IMG/VR virus record: IMGVR_UViG_3300043411_000733
Span: 1 to 43,126 of that record
Source of the DNA: a virus
Reading direction: 5' to 3' (one strand)
DNA: 43,126 nt
Below the pieces are notes generated by a model. That model saw only the letters and a list, made by a program, of their open reading frames with translations, had not been told where the DNA came from and searched no databases. Below are positions 2,670 to 42,438 of this stretch, piece after piece; positions within the stretch are counted from its first letter, which is position 1; each line of letters starts with the position of its first letter. The position numbers and the translations under genes are program-made.

Positions 2670-3494
2670 CTATTTTTCTATGTCTTTCTCTGTCGGTTCT
2701 CCAGTAAATTTATTAAATGCTGATAATGCGTTGGTAGCGGCAGCTAATGAAAAACCTGTTGATGAAGGCGGAACCTCTGTAACAGGAGGTTCTTGATTAG
2801 GTAATGTATCAGGAACATTTGAAGAAGAGGGAGGTGTAGGACGTTGACTAAATCCGACATCTTCAGGAAATTTAGGTGTTACTGTAGTTAATGGAGAGAA
2901 AAATTCGGAATCAGAATTGTTTGAATACGCTAACGATCTAAGTCCCATAATTTCTGAATGAACGGTGAATTCTGCATTTAATTGTAATTGAAATGCTTTT
3001 TCTGAACTATCAGTAGCTGAAAAGCTATTAAATGTACCTAGATAATAAAAACCATCAAAGTAAATCTGTATGATTCCTGATAGAATCACTTCTCCTTTAT
3101 CATCTACAATGGCTCCATTATTTTTGTAAAGTTCAAGCATGTCTAAGTAGCTGTCATAGGCCAGAGTCTGTCTTCTATATCCAGGTGTCCCACCACCTCC
3201 TGTGATTCCCGTTACCCCGTGATAGACTCGTACAAATCCACCTGTAGCCATATCAAACGATATTGTTTCAGCACCTTCCCCAAAATGAGCCTCAACAAAA
3301 CCTCCCAATGTTTGTTGTTTATCTATTATTTTAGAACAACTAATAGACATAGAGGTAGGATTAACATATAAAACAAGTTTATAATTTCTTAGTAAACTTG
3401 TTTTATAGTCTGGGCCTAAAATATCGAATATAACAGGTCTTCTACCTCTAGCTAAACTTTCTTCGTTTATACCAGAAAACGATCCTTTAATCAT
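2670..3494 (-). CDS. Small hub-like baseplate protein, paralog of the C-terminus of the M15-peptidase hub protein
   Basis: A 274-residue protein whose core (about residues 38-190) aligns with the C-terminal third of the 5801-7840 product. Shared landmarks in the same order are LYVNPTSMSIS / LLINPESLAIN, a G-rich stretch, ELYKNNGAI / LFYKNNGYI, YFDGFYYLGTFNSFS / EYDGWVYEGNMESFS and a closing strand-rich segment. This layout belongs to phage tail proteins of the hub or tube-adaptor type, so a structural role is likely. Residues about 205-245 are Pro/Ser-rich and probably flexible. The ATG overlaps the stop of the metallophosphoesterase gene (ATGA), and a terminator follows. A virion gene transcribed with a superoxide dismutase and a phosphoesterase is odd. 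Family assignment is by inspection; the exact baseplate position is unknown. Confidence 0.65.
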   Translation of the reverse strand: MIKGSFSGINEESLARGRRPVIFDILGPDYKTSLLRNYKLVLYVNPTSMSISCSKIIDKQQTLGGFVEAHFGEGAETISFDMATGGFVRVYHGVTGITGGGGTPGYRRQTLAYDSYLDMLELYKNNGAIVDDKGEVILSGIIQIYFDGFYYLGTFNSFSATDSSEKAFQLQLNAEFTVHSEIMGLRSLAYSNNSDSEFFSPLTTVTPKFPEDVGFSQRPTPPSSSNVPDTLPNQEPPVTEVPPSSTGFSLAAATNALSAFNKFTGEPTEKDIEK

Positions 3495-4279
3495 ACTAAT
3501 CTTACCTGATTCATATTTTTAACAATTTTTATAGGAGCCTCTGCATCCTTTTCATCAGGATATCCAAAAGGATTGCATAATATAAGAGTACCATTTAGTT
3601 TATAAATAAATTTGTTGTGGGTATGTCCATGAACCCATAAAGACGGAATTTTTCTCAGGATTATTTTTTCTTGGTCCGAACAAAAGAAATAATTTGATTG
3701 TGAGTTTCTAAATCTTTCTGGGATAGACTTAGGAGAACATGTATGATGGGTTATCACAATATCTCCCCTTTTACATTCACTTTCCAGTAAATTTATAAAA
3801 TCTTCATGGGATCTGTAAACCCATTTCTCAAGATCCTCAATATAATGAACGTCTGGCATACATACATGATTGTAAGTTCTAGCGTATTTAGAATCAGCAT
3901 ACCACATGGTTCCACCAATATAACGGTTCCCATCTAATTCTACAATTTCATTATCTAAAAATTTAAATGATGGACATCTTCTTTCAATATCTCTTAAAAT
4001 TCCTGTAATTGTAGCTTTATTACTGTGATAATAATCATGATTACCTGCAACATACAAAACATTTTTGTATCTAGGTATGATAAAATTTATAAGATAATTC
4101 ACATGGTCTGAATTAGAGATATTTCCTAAGTCACCTGCTATAATTAAAACTCCTTCAGGATCTCTCGTCGAATTTATATAGTGACTTAATTCCAACATTA
4201 GTTCATTGTCATCATATCTAAATTCAAGATGTGTATCTGATATACTATAAATGTTCGTTTCTTTATTGATAGCCGACAT
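3491..4279 (-). CDS. Calcineurin-like metallophosphoesterase
   Basis: A 262-residue protein with the full set of metallophosphoesterase motifs in order: SDTH (Asp15, His17), GDLGN (Asp50), GNHDYYH (Asn80, His81, Asp82), an ITHHTCSP segment near residue 178 and GHTHN near residue 218. These residues bind two divalent metals in the family and hydrolyse phosphomonoesters or diesters; the substrate cannot be told from sequence. The length is normal for a single-domain enzyme, and no signal peptide or membrane segment is seen, so it should be cytosolic. An AAGGA site precedes the ATG. It lies 10 bp after the superoxide dismutase gene and overlaps the next gene by ATGA, so all three are probably co-translated. 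Roles in nucleic acid, nucleotide or protein dephosphorylation are all possible. Confidence 0.9.
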   Translation of the reverse strand: MSAINKETNIYSISDTHLEFRYDDNELMLELSHYINSTRDPEGVLIIAGDLGNISNSDHVNYLINFIIPRYKNVLYVAGNHDYYHSNKATITGILRDIERRCPSFKFLDNEIVELDGNRYIGGTMWYADSKYARTYNHVCMPDVHYIEDLEKWVYRSHEDFINLLESECKRGDIVITHHTCSPKSIPERFRNSQSNYFFCSDQEKIILRKIPSLWVHGHTHNKFIYKLNGTLILCNPFGYPDEKDAEAPIKIVKNMNQVRLV

Positions 4280-4289
4280 ATAGATCCTT

Positions 4290-4895
4290 TTAAGTATATG
4301 AATTATATAAATTAGAACAGTAGTCCCAATTTACAATTTCTAAGCATTCTACGAGATATCTCTTTCTATCTGATTTATAGTCCAAATAATAACTATGCTC
4401 CCATAAATCTATTAATAAAATAGGCATAGTCCCATTAAGTTTTTTCCCATCTTGACCTTCAAAAGAATATAAAACAAGTTGCTTAATATGGATGTTGTAA
4501 CCAAGACCAATCCATCCAGATCCCCTAAGATTACTATTAAATTCAATAAATAATCTCTTAAAATCAGTGAATGATCCGAAGGTAGATTTTATTTCCTTAA
4601 ATAAGGAGCTATTAGGATCTGGTAAATATTTTTCCCAAGATCTAGGTGCTAACATATTCCAAAATAAACAATGATTCCTATGTCCAGCAACATTAAACAT
4701 CAGATCATTGTTTATTTTTTCTAGTTTGGCTCCTGTGTTTTCATAATAATATTGACATTTTAAATTATATAATGCTTTATTGGCTCCATCAACATAAGCC
4801 TGATGATGCTTTGTATGATGAAGCCACATAGTTTCTTGACTAATAAAAGGTTCTAATTCGTTGTAGTCATACGGCAATTCTGGAAGTTTGAACAT
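4290..4895 (-). CDS. sodA: Superoxide dismutase, Fe/Mn family (Mn-type signature)
   Basis: A 201-residue protein matching the Fe/Mn superoxide dismutase family from end to end, starting at the usual LPELPYDYNELEP. It should convert superoxide to hydrogen peroxide and oxygen in the cytosol, as a dimer or tetramer. The metal ligands are all present: His26 in LHHTKHHQAYV, His75 in GHRNHCLFW, and Asp163 and His167 in DLWEHSYYLDY. The outer-sphere residues His30 and Tyr34 are kept. The GHxNH segment and a Gln148-Asp pair resemble the Mn-type enzyme more than the Fe-type, so Mn or cambialistic use is likely. No leader peptide is visible. The gene lies between the Cys-rich gene and the metallophosphoesterase on one transcript, with a weak ribosome site. 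No frameshift or lost residue suggests decay. Confidence 0.93.
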   Translation of the reverse strand: MFKLPELPYDYNELEPFISQETMWLHHTKHHQAYVDGANKALYNLKCQYYYENTGAKLEKINNDLMFNVAGHRNHCLFWNMLAPRSWEKYLPDPNSSLFKEIKSTFGSFTDFKRLFIEFNSNLRGSGWIGLGYNIHIKQLVLYSFEGQDGKKLNGTMPILLIDLWEHSYYLDYKSDRKRYLVECLEIVNWDYCSNLYNSYT

Positions 4896-4913
4896 TTTTA
4901 TCCCATTAAAAAG

Positions 4914-5768
4914 TTAATTTACAGGGTTTTTAGGAGGTCCAGCGTTAGGATTAAAAATCCCCAATTTCTTTTCTAATTTTTCCCTAACTTTTTTATTCCG
5001 CCATTTTGTTGTTTTAAAGAATTGATCTAACATTTTTGAACAGAATCTTTCGGGACTATCAAATTTATCCTTTAATTTTGCAACACACGCAGAGAATGGA
5101 TGATCTGGATCATCTTTTGTGATAGTATTATAAAATTTCTTAAAAGATTTTGCTGTCCACCCTTTTGGTAATTTTTTAAATCCTACAGGTTTTTTGACAG
5201 ATTTTTCAGCATCAGGTCCAGTATCTGCTGCTATCTTTACTAGACCTTCTTTACTAATTAAATAAATCCCAATGTTATTTTCATGTCTCTGTACCCAGAC
5301 AAAAAGGGTCGGACATTTACCTAAACAAAAATGAAAGTTGCTTCTATCTCCTTTATAAAAAAGCTCAATAGAGCATAGTAAATCACATATCTGCTCTTTA
5401 TCTATATTTTGACCAGAAAATAAACATACGAGTTCGTTTATTAATCTGGCAACATCAAAACAAATATTAGATAGTAAATTCTTTCTTTGATCTACTTGTC
5501 TAGAAATAACATCATATTCTGAAAGAATCCATTCAAAGTATCTGCATTTCTCTTTAGCCATATTAAAAAATGATGTTTCACAACAACCACACATTTCACA
5601 ATTGCACATTTCTGAATTACATTTACAAGTTGAACAGCACCCACAGAAAGAACAAAACTCACACGGATTACAATGACAAGTAGTACATTTTATATGGCAG
5701 CTATTAAATGTACCCAAAGTAGGTGTTTCACAACGACAGAAATAAGAACGACAATTACTGCACCACAT
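4914..5768 (-). CDS. Metallothionein-like Cys-rich domain fused to a phage-type C-terminal module
   Basis: A 284-residue protein with 20 cysteines in its first 63 residues, arranged as CxC, CxxC and CxCC pairs (for example Cys11/13, 31/33, 42/44/45, 48/50, 55/57, 60/62/63). Such density and spacing are those of metallothioneins, so binding of a metal cluster (Zn, Cu or Cd type) is a reasonable inference; repeated small zinc knuckles are the alternative. Residues about 70-190 form a mixed domain of unknown family. Residues about 198-258 contain KLPKGWTAKSFKKFYNTI, an HPFSACVAKL segment, a PERFC segment and TTKWR, which from memory resembles a small module in other phage and bacterial proteins. 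It is the first gene of the minus-strand cassette, 18 bp before the superoxide dismutase gene and 32 bp from the divergent hub gene. Confidence 0.85.
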   Translation of the reverse strand: MWCSNCRSYFCRCETPTLGTFNSCHIKCTTCHCNPCEFCSFCGCCSTCKCNSEMCNCEMCGCCETSFFNMAKEKCRYFEWILSEYDVISRQVDQRKNLLSNICFDVARLINELVCLFSGQNIDKEQICDLLCSIELFYKGDRSNFHFCLGKCPTLFVWVQRHENNIGIYLISKEGLVKIAADTGPDAEKSVKKPVGFKKLPKGWTAKSFKKFYNTITKDDPDHPFSACVAKLKDKFDSPERFCSKMLDQFFKTTKWRNKKVREKLEKKLGIFNPNAGPPKNPVN

Positions 5769-5800
5769 ACTTATATACCTTACTGTGAAGAGACTTTATT

Positions 5801-7840
5801 ATGGCTATCAAATTAAAACCTGTTACAGATCCTACCAAAATATATCCAGCCAGAGTCTATGATAAGCTCGCTGTCGGATTTGATACCAAGGTAAATTGGG
5901 AGACTCAATCAACAATCCCTGTTGAAAATTCTGATAAGACATTGAGAAGTCTATCTCCATTTATTATTAGAGCATTAATACCAGAATTTTATCAAGAATA
6001 CTTTGATAAACAATCAGCCATAAAAAAATCGGTTAGCTCTAATAACGGAACTATCACAGAAGAAACATTATTTGATATAAATGACCTGAATAATGCAACT
6101 ACAAGCTTTCAAGAAATGTTGAAAGCTCAGTTCCTATATGCCATTCAATATGCTACTTTTAATTTTCAAGATATTTCAGCAGTACCTTTAGATCCACAAC
6201 AAGTCGAATATGTACCTACCTCATTTAAAGATCCCGGTGTTGATAATCCGCAGTTAACTAAAAGATTTAAATTAAGCGACTTCAAATCTAAACTTCCACC
6301 AACACAAATTCCTCCAGAAATATATGATCCTATAAATCCTAATGGTAAGCCTACAGGATTTCCCGTTCGTGCAAACCTAAAAATAGCTGCCTCACAAGTT
6401 GAAATCATTCTAGATACTATCGAAAAAGCATTAGGGAAGCCTGTTAATGTAACAATAATAAGTGGATGGAGATCTATAGAACATAACGCACGTACAGGTG
6501 CTAATGATCCATTCGGAAACCATGCTCAAGGAAAAGCAATTGATTTCTCTGTAAAACAGTTATCAATTCCAGAACTTGCTGCTGTAGTAGACATACTAAG
6601 ATCCAACGGTGGAATTATCAAAGGGGGTTTAGGAATATATAAGAGTTTTATACATTATGACATCAGAGGGCAGAATGATAACTGGATTGGAGAAAGTCCA
6701 GATGATCAAGAACACGAAGGAAAATTATCGCAATATGTTCAGCAAGTGCAATATAAAAAAGGGTTTACAGAAGAAGAATTGCTAAGAACAGCAAAAGAAG
6801 CAGGAAAAGGTGTTGATTTTCCAACTTATAGATCAACAGGTACTTCAGAAAATAATGTAAATATGGATGATGCAGCTAGAAGCTCTGATTCTTATAGTAA
6901 TGCAGCACAAGCAAGAAAGGCAAATGCCAGTATAGCAACAAGTAATTTTCTTAATGCCTTCAAAGCTCTCATAGGTGTAGAGCAGAGTGTTACAGATCAG
7001 GGTTTTGATTTTTCTAAGATGACACCTCAAGAGACTTTTCAAGGAGATAGACTTACTGCCCTTGATATACTTTATCAACTAAGAGCAATACAAGAAATAC
7101 CTCCATTGGTTCTCTTAATAAATCCAGAGAGTTTAGCTATAAACTATACTAAGGTATCCCAATTTACAGAAAGAGGAAGATATGGATATATTTATCATAC
7201 TTGGGGTGATGAACTGCCTAAAATGTCAGTATCTGGAAAAATAGGTGCATTTGTTACGGGTAATAGTAATGGTGAACCTGGACCTAATGGAGTACAGTTT
7301 GCTTCAAAAAGAAATTCGGCAGCATTTCAAAATCTAATGAATTTACTTTTGTTTTATAAGAACAATGGGTATATTTATAATAGAACAGAGGCAAGAACTC
7401 CATCGACATTACATTCAGTGGGTTTGTTAGCTATTGAATATGATGGATGGGTATATGAAGGTAATATGGAAAGTTTTTCGTATTCATATTCTGAGGAGAC
7501 ACAGAACGGGGGAATGGAATTTAGCTTTGAATTTTCAATAGAGAAAATAATTCCTCCAGTTGCCGATTTCAACATAACCCCACCTACAGGTTTTAATGTA
7601 CCAGCCGTACCGACTGACACATCTGAGAATGTAGATGGAGGATTTTTTGATACACTTGGACAGGGAGCTTTGGATGCTCTGCTAGGTGTCGGTGAAGGTG
7701 TTTTACAAGAAAATTCGATACGTGAAACTATAAATACAAGTCAACAAATGTGGAATGCATTGAATGGTGAAATAACACCATCCAATACAGGCTCTGAGAC
7801 TATATTAGCTAGAAATAGTGCAGGCTTCATAAGAACTTAA
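5801..7840 (+). CDS. Baseplate hub-associated protein with M15-type peptidoglycan peptidase domain
   Basis: A 679-residue protein in three parts. Residues about 1-185 have no family I can name. Residues about 190-300 form a peptidase M15 (VanY/DD-carboxypeptidase-like) domain: SGWRSIEHNARTG is followed by NHAQGKAIDF with zinc ligands His241 and Asp248, then FIHYDIRG with the third ligand His285. The family cleaves peptide cross-links of peptidoglycan, so this is probably a virion-borne lysin acting during injection. Residues about 430-600 are the hub-like domain shared with the 2670-3494 gene, containing LLINPESLAIN and LFYKNNGYI. The C-terminal tail is low in motifs. It begins the plus-strand structural block, 24 bp before the large hub gene, with a GAAGAG-type ribosome site. 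A fused wall-degrading domain is common in tail-tip proteins. Confidence 0.85.
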   Translation: MAIKLKPVTDPTKIYPARVYDKLAVGFDTKVNWETQSTIPVENSDKTLRSLSPFIIRALIPEFYQEYFDKQSAIKKSVSSNNGTITEETLFDINDLNNATTSFQEMLKAQFLYAIQYATFNFQDISAVPLDPQQVEYVPTSFKDPGVDNPQLTKRFKLSDFKSKLPPTQIPPEIYDPINPNGKPTGFPVRANLKIAASQVEIILDTIEKALGKPVNVTIISGWRSIEHNARTGANDPFGNHAQGKAIDFSVKQLSIPELAAVVDILRSNGGIIKGGLGIYKSFIHYDIRGQNDNWIGESPDDQEHEGKLSQYVQQVQYKKGFTEEELLRTAKEAGKGVDFPTYRSTGTSENNVNMDDAARSSDSYSNAAQARKANASIATSNFLNAFKALIGVEQSVTDQGFDFSKMTPQETFQGDRLTALDILYQLRAIQEIPPLVLLINPESLAINYTKVSQFTERGRYGYIYHTWGDELPKMSVSGKIGAFVTGNSNGEPGPNGVQFASKRNSAAFQNLMNLLLFYKNNGYIYNRTEARTPSTLHSVGLLAIEYDGWVYEGNMESFSYSYSEETQNGGMEFSFEFSIEKIIPPVADFNITPPTGFNVPAVPTDTSENVDGGFFDTLGQGALDALLGVGEGVLQENSIRETINTSQQMWNALNGEITPSNTGSETILARNSAGFIRT

Positions 7841-11986: not shown

Positions 11987-12220
11987 TCTCTTCTTCTATA
12001 GAGAAGCTTCAAATATTACTTTTATAGATGCAGAGCATAGAAAAGGATAAAAGCGTATATATGAATAATATAGTATATACTCTTTAGAGTATTGTGTACA
12101 CGAAGTGTACTATAGAAGAAGAGTAAGAATAAGTATCGTCAGTATACTCTCTCCCTATTCTTTATCCCCTTCCTCTCCTTCTTCTTGTGGGGCCATCCAC
12201 GGCCCTTCCTTGGAAATACT
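11987..12220 (+). promoter_or_regulatory. Structured leader between hub and spike genes
   Basis: This is the longest gene-free stretch in the window (234 bp). Two bases after the hub stop, CTCTTCTTCTATAG (11988-12001) is an exact inverted copy of CTATAGAAGAAGAG (12110-12123), able to close a ~136-nt RNA domain. Inside it lie two adjacent perfect hairpins: ATACTC-TTTA-GAGTAT (12077-12092) and GTACAC-GAA-GTGTAC (12096-12110). A third, GTATATA at 12055-12061 with TATATAC at 12074-12080, overlaps and competes with the first. A pyrimidine-rich tract (about 12143-12186) and a GC hairpin follow. No tRNA fold and no convincing small gene is seen. A structured 5' leader, RNA processing site or attenuator is possible; the structures are seen, the role is inferred. 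Confidence 0.5.
12190..12205 (+). promoter_or_regulatory. GC hairpin just upstream of the spike start
   Basis: GGGCC (12190-12194) and GGCCC (12201-12205) form a perfect all-GC stem around a six-base loop in otherwise A+T-rich DNA. It ends 15 bases before the ATG at 12221, next to the weak GGAA ribosome site, where it could influence translation initiation. An upstream in-frame TTG at 12185 would place the hairpin inside the coding region, but it has no better ribosome site, so the ATG is preferred. Confidence 0.45.
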
Positions 12221-28629: not shown

Positions 28630-29445
28630 TTATGTGTTTTCATCATAACGTCGAAATTCTCTACGAATCTTCTGCAACTCCTTTTTAACTTCTTTCTTTG
28701 ATCGTAAGGCACCTTTATTTACTAAAAGGGTTTTAACTGGATCTTTCATTTTTGAATAACGTATCAAACTAGCAATATTTTTCTGAAAAAGATTTTCTAT
28801 TTTACTGAGTTGTTCAACTAATCTTGAATTTCCTACAGTATTTTCGTAGATACCTTCAAATATCTCATTTATATTATTTACTTTTGGAAAAGCGAAGATA
28901 GAAGCAGAAGATGATGAAGGAGCATCAAGTTGTTTCGGACCTATCCTATGATAAATTTTAAATTGATGATACGATCTTTTTGTATCAATTCTAAAATCAG
29001 TTACTAATATATTGGTATCTTCTGACTCATTATCTATGAATGTTAATTGATCATTACGATAGGTTATAATTCTTCCATTTGGATTAAAAACGCTAAAGTA
29101 TTTAACTATTAGACCTGATATTTTACCGAAAATATAGTTACGAAAACATTTGTTTAAATTAATGATCTGCTCATCGATTAATCCTGTTTTATATATTAAT
29201 TTCATAGTTTCCAATACTTCTTTTACATTTTTATACTTCTTTGTGTCATAACATTCTACTATTTCTATTCCAGAAGGTAATTTGGTGTAATCAAAATAAT
29301 TAATAAGCTCATTAATTTTGTTTTTTCTAACGAGTATTTTTATTATTTCGTGCAGTACTTCGTTATCTCCTAAGTTTAGGATTTGCACTAGTCTTTCTAA
29401 TTCTTCGTCTGTATTTACAGGACGTGATATTACTTCTGAATTCAT
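28630..29445 (-). CDS. Hypothetical protein
   Basis: A 271-residue, mainly helical and basic protein, third in a minus-strand trio embedded in the structural region. Its ATG overlaps the stop of the upstream gene (TAATG), showing translational coupling. Residues about 14-48 (ELERLVQILNLGDNEVLHEI and on) faintly recall the two-helix module of the left and right paralog sets, but the turn differs and I do not count it as a member. The C-terminus (LRSKKEVKKELQKIRREFRR) is a strongly basic helix that could bind nucleic acid or an acidic partner. No catalytic motif is visible. The function is unknown. Confidence 0.8.
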   Translation of the reverse strand: MNSEVISRPVNTDEELERLVQILNLGDNEVLHEIIKILVRKNKINELINYFDYTKLPSGIEIVECYDTKKYKNVKEVLETMKLIYKTGLIDEQIINLNKCFRNYIFGKISGLIVKYFSVFNPNGRIITYRNDQLTFIDNESEDTNILVTDFRIDTKRSYHQFKIYHRIGPKQLDAPSSSSASIFAFPKVNNINEIFEGIYENTVGNSRLVEQLSKIENLFQKNIASLIRYSKMKDPVKTLLVNKGALRSKKEVKKELQKIRREFRRYDENT

Positions 29446-30281
29446 TATATAGCCGTGTTTTTCTCATCAGGTAAGATGTCATCGAACATATTATCAAATA
29501 ATGATAAATTTGGACCTGTACTATCAAAATCGTATGTATTTGTATCTGAATCAAAAGCGAAAAATGTTTCGTCTATCGTATCAATAATTCTTGGAACACG
29601 TAATTCTTCTGTATAGCGTGTAGGATCATAAGTTGTAATAGAAGAAGATAATCCACCAAAAGCCTGTGTGATAAGTATATCCCGTTCTTGTATTAGTTGC
29701 TCTCTTAAATCACATTCTTTTATAATTTTTGCTTCTATGTCATTGCGCTTATATTTTATTTCTTTTTGAAAAGCGCGTCTTGCATAGTGTATTAGATTAA
29801 CAAAATAATCGGCGTCTGAGTCAATATCTTTTTTACCACCTATTCTTGTAGGTATATATTTTCTTAATGGAAAAAATCCACCAGGAAATGTTCCGAATAG
29901 TGTATCAGGATCATTGTATTCAGCAGATATAGGATAAGTTACACCTCCATAAGGATAAGTTGCCCCTCCTGTTGCTGTTGTCTGATCGGGTATAAAAAAG
30001 TGAGAAATATCTAACGGATTTCCCCCCATTACAACATAGACCTGCATTAATTTTTCTAATCTTGAGTTAGGGGTAATTCTAAATCCTACTCGCTCCTCAG
30101 ATACTTTTACAACGCCACCTTCGTCTGTTTTTCGATATTCAACAATTACTTTACCAATTCTTTTTAATTCAGCCTCTATTACAGCTAGACGGCTTCCTAT
30201 GTCTCTGCGTTCTTGTAAGAGAAATTTCCTAAGAGCAAGCCAAGATCCTTTTCTAAATTTTCCTAGCCATCCAAAAGACAT
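29445..30281 (-). CDS. Putative virion-associated protein
   Basis: A 278-residue protein with an AAGGA site overlapping the stop of the upstream gene. Residues 1-55 form a basic helix (WLGKFRKGSWLALRKFLLQE and a following heptad-like stretch), then a strand pair with RVGFRITPNSRLEKLMQVYV and a GGNPLDISHFF phrase. A Gly/Tyr/Pro-rich middle (PYGGVTYPIS) precedes a helical segment and an acidic, Asp-rich tail. The Gly/Pro-rich style and the position among baseplate genes suggest a structural or assembly protein; I recall similar openings in large-phage virion proteins but cannot name a family. The second gene of the minus-strand trio. Confidence 0.78.
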   Translation of the reverse strand: MSFGWLGKFRKGSWLALRKFLLQERRDIGSRLAVIEAELKRIGKVIVEYRKTDEGGVVKVSEERVGFRITPNSRLEKLMQVYVVMGGNPLDISHFFIPDQTTATGGATYPYGGVTYPISAEYNDPDTLFGTFPGGFFPLRKYIPTRIGGKKDIDSDADYFVNLIHYARRAFQKEIKYKRNDIEAKIIKECDLREQLIQERDILITQAFGGLSSSITTYDPTRYTEELRVPRIIDTIDETFFAFDSDTNTYDFDSTGPNLSLFDNMFDDILPDEKNTAI

Positions 30282-30282
30282 G

Positions 30283-30738
30283 TTATTTTTTATCCTTATT
30301 TAGAATTTCAGAAATATGTTCAAAAGTGGTTGTAACTAGAGATTTGGTGAAATTTATATTTGCAGGTACTTTTTTAGGATACTCATTTTTAATAACGTTA
30401 GTTTCCCTTATTTTTACGATATAGTCGGACATAGCCATCTTTAATTTATCGTCTACTACAAAGGTTAGTAGTATAATAGTACCAGTATCTAATTTTACAA
30501 TAATCGTAAAAGATAGGTAATCATTTCTTATCTGGTCATAGTTGACTTGTTGCCTTTCTATAGATTTTGCTCCATCCAATCGTATCCATTCAGATGTAAA
30601 CTTGTATAGATCTATCTTGATTTGTTGTGAAATAATTTTCCTTACAGTAGTAAGGTCTTCTTTTGAGATTGGTTTTAACTTATTTAAGGCAGTAGCCAGT
30701 CGGGTAATTAAATGTCTGTCGATGTACTTCTCGCTCAT
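30283..30738 (-). CDS. Hypothetical protein, first gene of the minus-strand trio
   Basis: From the ATG at 30738 the protein has 151 residues. An ATG at 30750 would add four residues, but the inner one is preferred because AGGA lies six bases before it. The N-terminus is helical (LITRLATALNKLKPISKEDL), then strands (DYLSFTIIVKLDTGTIILL) and a final helix. No family is recognised. Its first nine codons overlap the first nine codons of the divergent gp25-like gene (30712-30738), so the promoters of each must lie within the other's coding region or further out. Confidence 0.75.
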   Translation of the reverse strand: MSEKYIDRHLITRLATALNKLKPISKEDLTTVRKIISQQIKIDLYKFTSEWIRLDGAKSIERQQVNYDQIRNDYLSFTIIVKLDTGTIILLTFVVDDKLKMAMSDYIVKIRETNVIKNEYPKKVPANINFTKSLVTTTFEHISEILNKDKK

Positions 30739-31818
30739 AGATGTCCTCATGAAATTGTAGAAGAAAGGGCGTACCTTGCTCCAGATAGATTGACTTTAGT
30801 GTCATCTCAAACATTAACAACTGTTAGTACTACAAGTGTTATTGTGAATGATGAAATCCTGATTCCATCATCGGGTTTATATGCCCAAGCGTATCTAAAG
30901 TCATCATTATCAGGCCCATTTAAGTTAAATAAAAGAGAAACCACATTTACTATAAAAACAGCAACAGAAATAGTCTCTATTAATCTACCTTATAACATAC
31001 TTATATCTACAGATGATATAGTGTACGAGATAAGAAAGGTAGCTAAAAATATTATTGCCTCTAATATCGGTGGATTTCTATCTGTATTAGATATCGGGAG
31101 TATAAATGCAACATCTTATCTAAAGGTTATGGGAACAGCAGTAGAAAAGTTAGGTTTTATACGGATTGGGTCAAAAGGAAAACAAATTTATCCTTCTTGG
31201 AATTTAGTAGATACTCCTGGATTAACATCTAGTCGTGCTAATAGATTTGTAAGATTTTCAGATATAATAAAAACCAATCCTGTATTTAAACTTACCTATA
31301 TCACTGTACCTGAAGAATGTACTCGATGTAGAGGTACGGGAATAGAAAATGACATGATCTATGATAGTTCAGGAGACGTTGTATTAATATCTGATGAAAA
31401 TCTATTAACACAAGCTGTTCTCAAGATAATACTTACACAAAAGGGAAGCAACGCATTTTTCTTATGGTATGGAAGTAACATGCAGAGTCTTCTTGGTAGC
31501 AAGGCTCTAAAATCTGTAGAAAACGCATTAAATCAAGACATAAGTAACGCAATTAACAATTTTAAACAGATACAAACAGAGCAAGCTCGTTATCAGTATA
31601 TTTCGGCCAGACAAAGACTGTATCAAGTTATCTCTGTTAATGTCACGCAGAGTAAGGAAAATCCAAGTCTATATAGATTGGATATTGTAGTATCAAATGC
31701 TTCTAGAGAAGCCATTCCTATTTCTATAGTTTATACGGTGGGGGATGTTATTACTCTACCTGGATCTAACGGTTTAACTCTGAATTTTGAAAGATCTGGA
31801 CTGGCATTACCCTCATAA
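30712..31818 (+). CDS. Baseplate wedge protein, GPW/gp25-like
   Basis: A 368-residue protein. The last ~150 residues have the layout of the GPW/gp25 fold: DENLLTQAVLKIILTQKGSN, then FFLWYGSNMQSLLGSK, a helix (NALNQDISNAINNFKQIQTE), and closing strands up to RLDIVVSNASREAIPISIVY. This domain starts sheath and wedge assembly in contractile tails. The first ~200 residues are an extra beta-rich domain not present in T4 gp25. A CTRC pair (Cys203, Cys206) followed by RGTG lies at the join and may bind metal. The start at 30712 is the only in-frame ATG near the 5' end and has a GGG site; it overlaps the divergent gene. The J-like and I-like genes follow, the usual order in contractile phages. Confidence 0.75.
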   Translation: MSVDVLLAHRCPHEIVEERAYLAPDRLTLVSSQTLTTVSTTSVIVNDEILIPSSGLYAQAYLKSSLSGPFKLNKRETTFTIKTATEIVSINLPYNILISTDDIVYEIRKVAKNIIASNIGGFLSVLDIGSINATSYLKVMGTAVEKLGFIRIGSKGKQIYPSWNLVDTPGLTSSRANRFVRFSDIIKTNPVFKLTYITVPEECTRCRGTGIENDMIYDSSGDVVLISDENLLTQAVLKIILTQKGSNAFFLWYGSNMQSLLGSKALKSVENALNQDISNAINNFKQIQTEQARYQYISARQRLYQVISVNVTQSKENPSLYRLDIVVSNASREAIPISIVYTVGDVITLPGSNGLTLNFERSGLALPS

Positions 31819-39509: not shown

Positions 39510-40400
39510 ATGAATCTAAAGAGGTCAATAAAGAGGGTAGCAAGTTTTATTCGTATTTCTTCTATGGATTTTGAACGTCTTGCAAAAGAGTACGAGAGAG
39601 ATCCTGAAAATCCCAACATGAGATTGGAATATATAAGAGAGTGTTTAAGAAGAGGGGAAGAACCTATTGTTTACTCACGTTGGCTTAAAGCTACACATGG
39701 ATTAACCATTAATCTTGCAGGGAAACAAATAGATATTAGAGGTAACTTGGAGGATTTAGGTTGGCTAAATGGGGTATATTCACAAGCAGAGGGTATAGTG
39801 TTTTCAGCAAATAAACTGAAGTCACTTAAGGGGGTAGATGTATCTTCTTTCCCAAATCTATCTAATCTTATATTTATGTTTCAGGATCTGAATGATCTAA
39901 CAGGTCTATCAGGAATAAATTCCCCAAATCTTCAAGTATTTACAGCGAATGGATGCAAATTAAAGAGTATAGACGGAATAGAAGGATTAAATACAATGAA
40001 TTTGCGAGATATAACACTTAATAGTAATGATATTAAAGATTTAAAGCCTCTGAATGGCTTAAATATCAAAACTTTATCGATAGCTTCAAATGAAAATGTA
40101 AATCTAGATAGTATAAAAAATCTAAGACTGCCAAGTCTACGCGCATTAGATTTGGGTAATACAGGAATCACAAATATAAGACATCTGGAGGGTATGGACT
40201 TTCCACAGTTAGGGTGGTTAGGTTTGCAAAAAAATAACATTAGTTCTCTTGACGAACTCCCCCTCATTCAACGTTTATTCCCTAGACTACATACTCTTTG
40301 GTTAAATGATAACCCTGTAAAGGTAACAAAAAGAACGCAGACTAAATTCCCATTTGTCCAGTTGGGACAATGGACATGGGTGGGAATGGACAAGGCTTGA
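39510..40400 (+). CDS. Leucine-rich repeat protein with amphipathic leader and N-terminal module (paralog 1)
   Basis: A 296-residue protein in three parts. Residues 1-17 contain the leader KRSIKRVASFIRIS, a basic amphipathic helix shared almost unchanged by the next three genes. Residues about 19-60 hold the module (FERLAKEYERDPENPNMRLE, then YIRECLRRGEEP), similar in layout to the repeat-companion domain (TIGR02996) found beside repeats in some bacteria. Residues about 70-285 are degenerate leucine-rich repeats of 22-25 residues with N-x-L and L-x-x-L phrases (LRDITLNSNDIKDLKPL). Such repeats bind proteins. It follows the fibre gene by 42 bp. An internal ATG after the leader has no ribosome site, so the leader is translated. 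The role in the phage is unknown; a partner-binding virion, injected or host-takeover protein is possible. Confidence 0.88.
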   Translation: MNLKRSIKRVASFIRISSMDFERLAKEYERDPENPNMRLEYIRECLRRGEEPIVYSRWLKATHGLTINLAGKQIDIRGNLEDLGWLNGVYSQAEGIVFSANKLKSLKGVDVSSFPNLSNLIFMFQDLNDLTGLSGINSPNLQVFTANGCKLKSIDGIEGLNTMNLRDITLNSNDIKDLKPLNGLNIKTLSIASNENVNLDSIKNLRLPSLRALDLGNTGITNIRHLEGMDFPQLGWLGLQKNNISSLDELPLIQRLFPRLHTLWLNDNPVKVTKRTQTKFPFVQLGQWTWVGMDKA

Positions 40401-40450
40401 GAGATAGAGCCTGTCATTTTATAGGTTCATCCTATTTAACTGGTTTCGTG

Positions 40451-40470
40451 ATTAAAGATAGAGGTGTAAG
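40451..40470 (+). promoter_or_regulatory. Conserved ribosome-site leader, paralog 2
   Basis: ATTAAAGATAGAGGTGTAAG directly before the ATG at 40471. It matches the leader of paralog 1 in the GAGGYGTAAG core and that of paralog 3 in the TTAAA-AGATA upstream part. Confidence 0.7.
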
Positions 40471-41127
40471 ATGAATCTGAAAATATCAATAAAAAGAGTG
40501 GCTAGCTTTCTAAGGGTAGGAGTAGATTTTGAAAGAATAAAGAGTAGGTATCAGGAGAATCCAGAGGATGTTTTATTGAGAAGTGATTACATTAGACAAT
40601 GTTTAAGGAGAAATGAAAATCCAGAGATTTATATTAAGTGGGTTAAAGACAGATATAATCTAGATATAGATCTAGATGCTAATAAATGGGATTTCTCGTC
40701 TAAATTGAAAATGGATCTTAATTTTCTTTCTGGTGTGTATGCTCCTAATCTAGAAGATTTAGATTTAGGTGGTAATTGGATTAGTTCATTGGAAGGATTA
40801 GATGGATTCAACGCTCCTAACCTAAACTTTTTAAATTTATCTGATAATAGAATCGGGTCATTGGAAGGTTTATCAGGATTGACTGCTCCTGCTCTACTAA
40901 CATTATATTTATCTGATAATAAGATCAGTTCCTTGAGAGGATTATCAGGATTAAATGCTCCTGATCTCCGTTTATTAGAGTTAGATAAAAATAATATCAA
41001 GTCATTGGAAGGATTACAAGGATGGAATACTCATAATCTCGACGAATTAGTGCTATATTCTAATCCAATAGCTATAGATATGCCTTATGAAGATAGGAAA
41101 AGATTCCCATTTATAGTTAGTAACTAG
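40471..41127 (+). CDS. Leucine-rich repeat protein with leader and N-terminal module (paralog 2)
   Basis: A 218-residue protein. Residues 1-16 are the leader (KISIKRVASFLRVG), residues about 18-58 the module (FERIKSRYQENPEDVLLRSD, then YIRQCLRRNENP). Residues about 90-195 hold four near-identical 24-residue leucine-rich repeats of the form APxLxxLxLxxNxIxSLxGLSG and a partial fifth (NTHNLDELVLYSNPI). The DNA repeats are in exact 72-nt register, so they arose by recent tandem duplication. It is the shortest intact LRR member. It lies 70 bp after paralog 1 and 67 bp before paralog 3. No signal peptide: the leader is basic and amphipathic rather than uniformly hydrophobic. The binding partner is unknown. 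Confidence 0.88.
   Translation: MNLKISIKRVASFLRVGVDFERIKSRYQENPEDVLLRSDYIRQCLRRNENPEIYIKWVKDRYNLDIDLDANKWDFSSKLKMDLNFLSGVYAPNLEDLDLGGNWISSLEGLDGFNAPNLNFLNLSDNRIGSLEGLSGLTAPALLTLYLSDNKISSLRGLSGLNAPDLRLLELDKNNIKSLEGLQGWNTHNLDELVLYSNPIAIDMPYEDRKRFPFIVSN
40741..41028 (+). repeat. Four tandem 72-bp LRR-coding repeats
   Basis: The phrase GCTCCT that begins each repeat recurs at 40741, 40813, 40885 and 40957, exactly 72 bases apart, and the sequence between is strongly similar (for example GGATTATCAGGATT and TTATCTGATAATA). Each unit encodes 24 residues of one leucine-rich repeat. Confidence 0.9.
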
Positions 41128-41179
41128 AAATATACGTATTATATAGATCGCTTGTCTTGCATAAATTAAACGTTAAAAG

Positions 41180-41194
41180 ATATAGAGTTATAAG
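41180..41194 (+). promoter_or_regulatory. Conserved ribosome-site leader, paralog 3
   Basis: ATATAGAGTTATAAG before the ATG at 41195. It keeps the GAG and TAAG of the leaders of paralogs 1 and 2 but has TTA where they have GYG, making a weaker ribosome site. Confidence 0.6.
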
Positions 41195-42091
41195 ATGACA
41201 CTAAAAAGATCAATAAATAGATCAATAAAAAGAGTGGCTAGTTTTATTAGAATATCAATGGATTTCGAACGTATTGAAATGATGTACAGGGAAAATCCAG
41301 AAGACCTTGATTTAAGAAAGGCATACTTTAGAGAATGTTTAAGGAGAAATGAAGAACCTACTATCTACTTGGATTGGGTTAAAAAAGCATACGGTATTGA
41401 TTTAGATCTTAAAAGTCAATATTTGAATCTAGAGGGGAAAGGACTATCAGATTTAAAATTTTTACAGGATCTTTATCTTCCTAATTTAGAAATGTTAGTA
41501 TTACATTCTAATCAGATAAGATCCTTGGATGGATTATCTGGACTGAATGCCCCAAATCTGTTATCTCTAAATTTGGACAGTAATCAAATAACTTCACTAG
41601 AAGGACTATCGAAATTTATTGCTCCTAAGTTAGCGATGTTATCGTTTGTAAAAAATAGTCTGACTTCATTAGAAGGATTATCTGAATTTAAGGCTCCTAG
41701 CCTATTAGAACTATACTTTGGAAATAATAAGATAAAGTCACTTAAAGGATTATCAGGATTTAAAGCGCCTAAATTAGCGAGATTAGAATTAAACGATAAT
41801 TATATAGATAGTCTTTATGACTTAAAGAACTTAAAATCTTCAATAATTAATTTAAATTTAGACACTAATAAGATAGAATCCTTAGATGATATGCCAAGGA
41901 TGCCAAAACTATTTAGACTGTTCTTATCTAATAATAGCTTAGAATCATTAGATGGATTGGAACAAGTCAAATCTACTGTCTTACTAGAAGTGAGGGTGGA
42001 AGGGAATGCCTTAGATCCAACAAAACTGGTAAAATTTTATAGAAAATATCCACAATTTCGTAGCATTGTTGAGGGGTCAACTTTAATATGA
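41195..42091 (+). CDS. Leucine-rich repeat protein with leader and N-terminal module (paralog 3)
   Basis: A 298-residue protein. The leader is extended to KRSINRSIKRVASFIRIS because a 12-base unit (AGATCAATAAAT/A) is duplicated at 41207-41230. Residues about 22-62 are the module (FERIEMMYRENPEDLDLRKA, then YFRECLRRNEEP). Residues about 90-285 contain about eight leucine-rich repeats, the first five in exact 72-nt register and the later ones more diverged (LARLELNDNYIDSLYDL, LFRLFLSNNSLESLDGL). It is the longest member and its stop overlaps the start of paralog 4 (ATGA). The leader, the module and the LRR units evolve at different rates, the leader being the most constant. Function unknown; a protein-binding role is inferred from the repeats. 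Confidence 0.88.
   Translation: MTLKRSINRSIKRVASFIRISMDFERIEMMYRENPEDLDLRKAYFRECLRRNEEPTIYLDWVKKAYGIDLDLKSQYLNLEGKGLSDLKFLQDLYLPNLEMLVLHSNQIRSLDGLSGLNAPNLLSLNLDSNQITSLEGLSKFIAPKLAMLSFVKNSLTSLEGLSEFKAPSLLELYFGNNKIKSLKGLSGFKAPKLARLELNDNYIDSLYDLKNLKSSIINLNLDTNKIESLDDMPRMPKLFRLFLSNNSLESLDGLEQVKSTVLLEVRVEGNALDPTKLVKFYRKYPQFRSIVEGSTLI
41477..41836 (+). repeat. Five tandem 72-bp LRR-coding repeats
   Basis: Equivalent hexamers (CTTCCT, GCCCCA, GCTCCT, GCTCCT, GCGCCT) start at 41477, 41549, 41621, 41693 and 41765, each 72 bases apart. The units resemble those of paralog 2 in sequence and register, but the copy number differs. Confidence 0.85.
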
Positions 42092-42438
42092 CTATCAAAA
42101 GATCAATAAAAAGAGTAGCAAGTTTTCTCCGTATTTCAATGGATACGGATGCACGCCTCGACAGGCTTGAAATTCTATCTAAAACCGATGAGGATGCTAG
42201 AATTGAGTATTTTAGAGAATTAGAACGAAGAGGAAAATTAACTGATTACTTAAATGATCTGAGAAAAGAAAGAGATGACAAAATATTGAAATCTTTTAAT
42301 TCTCTAAATGTAAAAGATCCAGAAGGACTTTTTGAGAATCTATTAGCTCCTTTTAGTTTCCTATTTGTAATTAACGGAAAAGCATTTTCTGATATAAATA
42401 AATTTGAGAAAGACACTAGACTTAATAGTCACTGCTAA
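42088..42438 (+). CDS. Paralog 4: leader and N-terminal module without LRR
   Basis: A 116-residue protein. It begins with the same leader (KRSIKRVASFLRIS), followed by a diverged module (RLDRLEILSKTDEDARIEYF, then RELERRGKL). After residue about 55 there is a short body with a Lys-rich helix and a hydrophobic segment (LFENLLAPFSFLFVINGK), but no leucine-rich repeat. It may be a truncated remnant or a deliberate short form. Its ATG overlaps the stop of paralog 3 (ATGA), with GAGGGG ahead as ribosome site, so it is translated in step with it. A hairpin 46 bp downstream closes the set. It shows that the leader and module can exist without the repeats. Confidence 0.82.
   Translation: MTIKRSIKRVASFLRISMDTDARLDRLEILSKTDEDARIEYFRELERRGKLTDYLNDLRKERDDKILKSFNSLNVKDPEGLFENLLAPFSFLFVINGKAFSDINKFEKDTRLNSHC

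Follow-up and report, generated by a model that had tools for sequence, protein, structure and literature searches.

An inverted baseplate-type gene shares a minus-strand gene row with superoxide dismutase, metallophosphoesterase and Cys-rich protein genes in a phage tail cluster

Results

A row of four genes on the minus strand

We analyzed 43,126 nucleotides of viral DNA (IMG/VR record IMGVR_UViG_3300043411_000733, positions 1 to 43,126). This whole stretch is called the window below. At 5768-2670 it carries a row of four minus-strand genes that diverges from a tail hub gene on the plus strand:

5768-4914, minus strand: Cys-rich protein, 284 aa (ORF list)
4895-4290, minus strand: superoxide dismutase (SOD) of the Fe/Mn type, 201 aa (Pfam, ligand alignment)
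4279-3491, minus strand: calcineurin-like metallophosphoesterase (MPE), 262 aa (Pfam, phrog_1649, motifs)
3494-2670, minus strand: baseplate protein of the tube-initiator type, 274 aa, Afp7/Pvc7-like fold (predicted fold)
3494-3491, minus strand: ATGA stop-start overlap of the MPE and baseplate genes (sequence)
2638-2606, minus strand: terminator-like hairpin, 14 pairs, T-rich tail (hairpin scan, folding)
5769-5800, no strand: divergent gap of 32 bp that separates the row from the tail hub gene, holding a Shine-Dalgarno-like sequence for the Cys-rich gene
5801-7840, plus strand: tail hub protein, 679 aa, with M15 peptidase domain and C-terminal domain (Pfam, paralogy)

The genes of the row are separated by 18 bp, by 10 bp and finally by the ATGA overlap. 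The open reading frames and the hairpin thus agree with a preliminary description of the locus, which had reported these gaps, the overlap and a terminator. The ATGA overlap likely couples the translation of the MPE and baseplate genes, and together with the short gaps it argues for co-translation. With the hairpin, these features make it likely that the four genes form a single message that ends at 2606.

The 14-pair stem lies inside an 81-bp intergenic gap, and the stretch folds at -19.1 kcal/mol. Stem length and position in this gap are the basis for calling it a terminator; terminator-like sites are no more frequent in the region than chance predicts (one found, shuffle mean 2.4). Promoter-like sites in the region are likewise at chance level (29 found, 30.8 expected). 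The first gene of the row and the divergent gene (5801) are only 32 bp apart, hence no ordinary promoter pair fits there.

Late, coordinated expression had also been proposed. A shared transcript is plausible, and since the last gene of the row encodes a virion part we infer late timing, provided that no other mRNA supplies the baseplate gene. At third codon positions, the G+C content of the four genes (0.19-0.23) falls inside the range of the rest of the window (0.12-0.28). The composition is not atypical, and the genes are therefore either long resident or well adapted.

Elsewhere in the window there are two further groups of similar genes and one palindromic gap. A tandem row of four related genes on the plus strand (39510-42438) has a common N-terminal stretch (KRSIKRVASF...), and the first three of them carry leucine-rich repeats. 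Four short genes on the minus strand (1-2588) also have a similar N-terminal stretch. They are possibly paralogues, have no convincing family match and may be related to the beginning of the genes with leucine-rich repeats. A 228-bp intergenic stretch 5' of the spike gene (11987-12214) contains several short palindromes, for example, ATACTCTTTAGAGTAT and GTGTACACGAAGTGTAC.

The last gene encodes a predicted tube initiator

The product of 2670-3494 has no match in Pfam, and no significant hit came from profile searching against the PDB. We modeled it with AlphaFold2 from 41 sequences (mean pLDDT 70, most of the core 75-95). The best matches of the model are the baseplate proteins Afp7 and Pvc7 (Foldseek E 3e-7), and the top VIA rows are 6rao_G (Z 10.5) and 6j0n_b (Z 10.4). 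The VIA match covers residues 13-182, with 140 residues at an rmsd of 3.6 A. The product is thus predicted to be a tube initiator of the Afp7/Pvc7 type with a tube-like beta fold. Other tail proteins with a tube fold score Z 7-9, so the fold alone does not settle the exact type.

The predicted fold of residues 13-182 resembles Afp7 and Pvc7 of contractile injection systems, yet sequence identity to them is only about 11%, and the C-terminal 80 residues are modeled without confidence. Within the window, the protein is paralogous to the C-terminal domain of the hub protein (5801-7840), whose gene is the next one after the baseplate gene in relatives. The gene identities given in the preliminary description hold, including the baseplate-type gene: Pfam and PHROGs identify SOD and MPE, and the Afp7/Pvc7 match identifies the tail protein.

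The SOD, MPE and Cys-rich proteins

The SOD matches PF00081 (1.2e-26) and PF02777 (3.9e-26), which together span residues 2-194 of 201. An alignment with 1ar4 shows that all metal ligands, three His and one Asp, are kept (HHxKHH, NHxxFW, DxWEH). At the second-sphere position the same alignment has Gln, which is usual in Mn enzymes.

SODs of the same Fe/Mn family occur in PA5oct-like Pseudomonas phages, in Vibrio phage 2.275.O and in two relatives of the window (G001 and G003), but they are merely 26-37% identical to the window SOD. The window SOD shares 42% identity (150 bits) with one cellular SOD but only 33% (108-112 bits) with its counterparts in the two relatives, which suggests a separate acquisition.

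SOD activity can matter for infection, since a Campylobacter phage plates at an efficiency of 0.30 on a host sodB mutant (PMC6024767). A later paper on the same phage system reports a weaker sodB effect, with an efficiency of 61% (PMC8540345). We found no study of a phage-encoded SOD in the literature that bears directly on a row of SOD and baseplate genes.

The MPE matches PF00149 (3e-10) and phrog_1649 (3.5e-44), and its motifs are intact in the translation (DTH, GD, GNHD, H, GHTH). The phrog_1649 MPE of Myxococcus phage Mx1 belongs to the same superfamily, with 34% identity. In Mx1, however, the gene lies in a tRNA-rich accessory region, whereas the MPE gene of the window lies in the tail cluster.

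The Cys-rich protein has 20 Cys within its first 63 residues and a middle part without assignment. It ends in a helical domain of about 75 amino acids (window 4935-5216) with the pattern K-L-P-K-G-W-T...C...FC...WR and two invariant Cys. Neither the protein nor this domain gave a convincing match in Pfam, PHROGs, NCBIfam or the PDB. Relatives match through the C-terminal domain alone, which is present on 34 viral contigs (loci L078-L111 are the set carrying it) and is fused to a wide variety of partners in proteins of large phages. The SOD, MPE and Cys-rich protein had all been called metal-linked; for the Cys-rich protein this is an inference.

Relatives keep the baseplate gene on the strand of the hub gene

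A DNA-level search of phage records gave no matches. Scans of viral contigs with single proteins found no relatives of the tail and Cys-rich proteins, so that alignment-based scans were needed. Alignments of the tail protein and of the large hub served as scan queries and, with LR745208.1 added, yielded 139 related loci. Some contigs were fetched twice, and the set corresponds to 72 non-redundant lineages.

The baseplate and hub genes share a strand in all 139 loci (72 non-redundant), whereas in the window the baseplate gene is inverted. A tape-measure match lies upstream of the baseplate gene in 134 of the 139. No match to the SOD, MPE or Cys-rich protein was found inside any of these tail loci (0/139). 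The preliminary description had stated that lack of this gene order in every related phage would refute its reading, and the order recurs in none of the related loci. A search of bacterial genomes for baseplate relatives returned two loci alone, both in standard orientation. In the large phage LR745208.1 and other related loci, the baseplate, hub, large hub and spike genes are ordered as in the window, but the tail cluster is all on one strand and has no SOD, MPE or Cys-rich gene at the site.

The closest relative by match to gene m278 (58% identity) is G011. On one strand, it has the order tape measure, baseplate gene, hub, large hub, spike, ..., g878, m278, g368 and wedge-type genes. Its tape-measure and baseplate genes are 3 bp apart, and the baseplate gene slightly overlaps the hub gene. 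The tape-measure gene is absent from the window, a 43-kb fragment. Otherwise the window keeps the order of G011, except that two genes are flipped at their sites, namely the baseplate gene (2670-3494) and m278 (29445-30281). Each of the two lies within a minus-strand island with added genes.

The second of these islands spans 28630-30750. There m278, flanked by two extra minus-strand genes, points the opposite way to its neighbours g878 and g368. Nearly all relatives with both g878 and m278 have them side by side in one orientation, the exceptions being G001 and G002. In L079, L082, L097, L098 and similar loci, a gene with the C-terminal domain of the Cys-rich protein lies directly 3' of the m278 relative.

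The partner genes do occur elsewhere in the phage group. Of the 45 related records searched first, two have an SOD 22 and 24 kb away from the baseplate gene (G001 and G003), and none has an MPE. Many related records are fragments, so such absences are weak evidence; the strong argument is the baseplate gene's orientation. Six records of a second set of related large phages have an MPE (G048, G049, G050, G051, G065 and G066), 68-450 kb from the baseplate gene. Hence the parts of the row exist in the group, and together they were not found among the records searched.

MPE and SOD lie close together in two other loci. In L008 (2180-8513) they are about 5 kb apart on one strand, followed by a long repetitive gene that resembles a tail fibre; in L009 they are about 3 kb apart. 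We rejected this pair as the same unit: there is no homologous tail gene, and other genes lie between the two (seen in L008).

The co-orientation in 139 of 139 loci and the absence of the partner genes there make the unit specific to the window contig among the loci compared. Close relatives of the window may be missing from the record collections, and the relatives found are all distant (about 40-52% identity for the baseplate protein); a nearer lineage that has this four-gene row may therefore exist unsampled. A second copy of the baseplate gene outside the 43-kb window would also escape our view.

Discussion

What could have brought a baseplate gene and three accessory genes into one row? 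The preliminary description suggested that the products may be packaged into the particle. In a functional module of this kind, the enzymes would travel with the baseplate, remove superoxide and act on phosphoesters during injection or right after it. The linkage to the baseplate gene and the probable coupling of translation would fit such a module. So would the genes in several relatives that carry the C-terminal domain of the Cys-rich protein directly 3' of structural-cluster genes, and the fact that giant eukaryotic viruses package a superoxide dismutase (PMC9405923). However, no relative has the linkage, and where relatives do have SOD or MPE, the genes lie far from the tail genes. The SOD domains fill the open reading frame, leaving no added stretch for targeting. 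We found nothing in support of packaging into the particle and consider the module improbable. We give similarly little credence to a related proposal, in which the redox genes are coupled translationally to the essential baseplate gene and SOD or the Cys-rich protein enters the particle. If it were true, the enzyme dose would follow virion assembly.

The row could also be a moron-like transcription unit with its own promoter and terminator, which was inserted into the tail cluster and captured the baseplate gene as a passenger. Its strand is opposite to that of the tail cluster, it has its own terminator-like hairpin, and three of its genes are missing from the equivalent site in relatives. 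Yet no promoter stands out above chance and the divergent gene is 32 bp away, the base composition is not foreign, and the last gene is a conserved tail gene that is not normally part of a moron. We regard this origin as rather unlikely, though worth some weight. An assembly error or a reversible DNA switch is very improbable. The contig is metagenomic, and the block sits at its ancestral site, turned round. But plain mis-orientation explains neither the three new genes between conserved neighbours nor the ATGA overlap with MPE, and a second, separate inversion is present at 28630-30750. A switch through flanking repeats was rejected: a search for inverted repeats bounding the block found none.

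We favour the reading that the row is specific to the lineage of one large contractile-tailed phage, in whose tail cluster the baseplate gene was flipped at its site and linked to three accessory genes. We give this a probability of roughly 0.6. The baseplate tube-initiator gene, normally between the tape-measure and hub genes on one strand, would have been turned round at its site, and the Cys-rich, SOD and MPE genes would now precede it on its new strand. All four would be read late as one mRNA that runs to the hairpin at 2606. The SOD may act in the infected cell during assembly and lower superoxide, the MPE would cleave a phosphoester, and the Cys-rich protein may bind metal or form disulfides. 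The three proteins would then provide accessory functions of the infected cell and would not be parts of the particle.

The row looks like a private rearrangement with accessory genes, rather than a conserved phage machine. On this lineage-specific reading, a tail-gene order that is otherwise invariant can break by inversion in place, and genes for accessory enzymes can come to share a row with a virion gene. Closely packed genes can mimic a functional cassette, and comparison with relatives reveals the arrangement as private.
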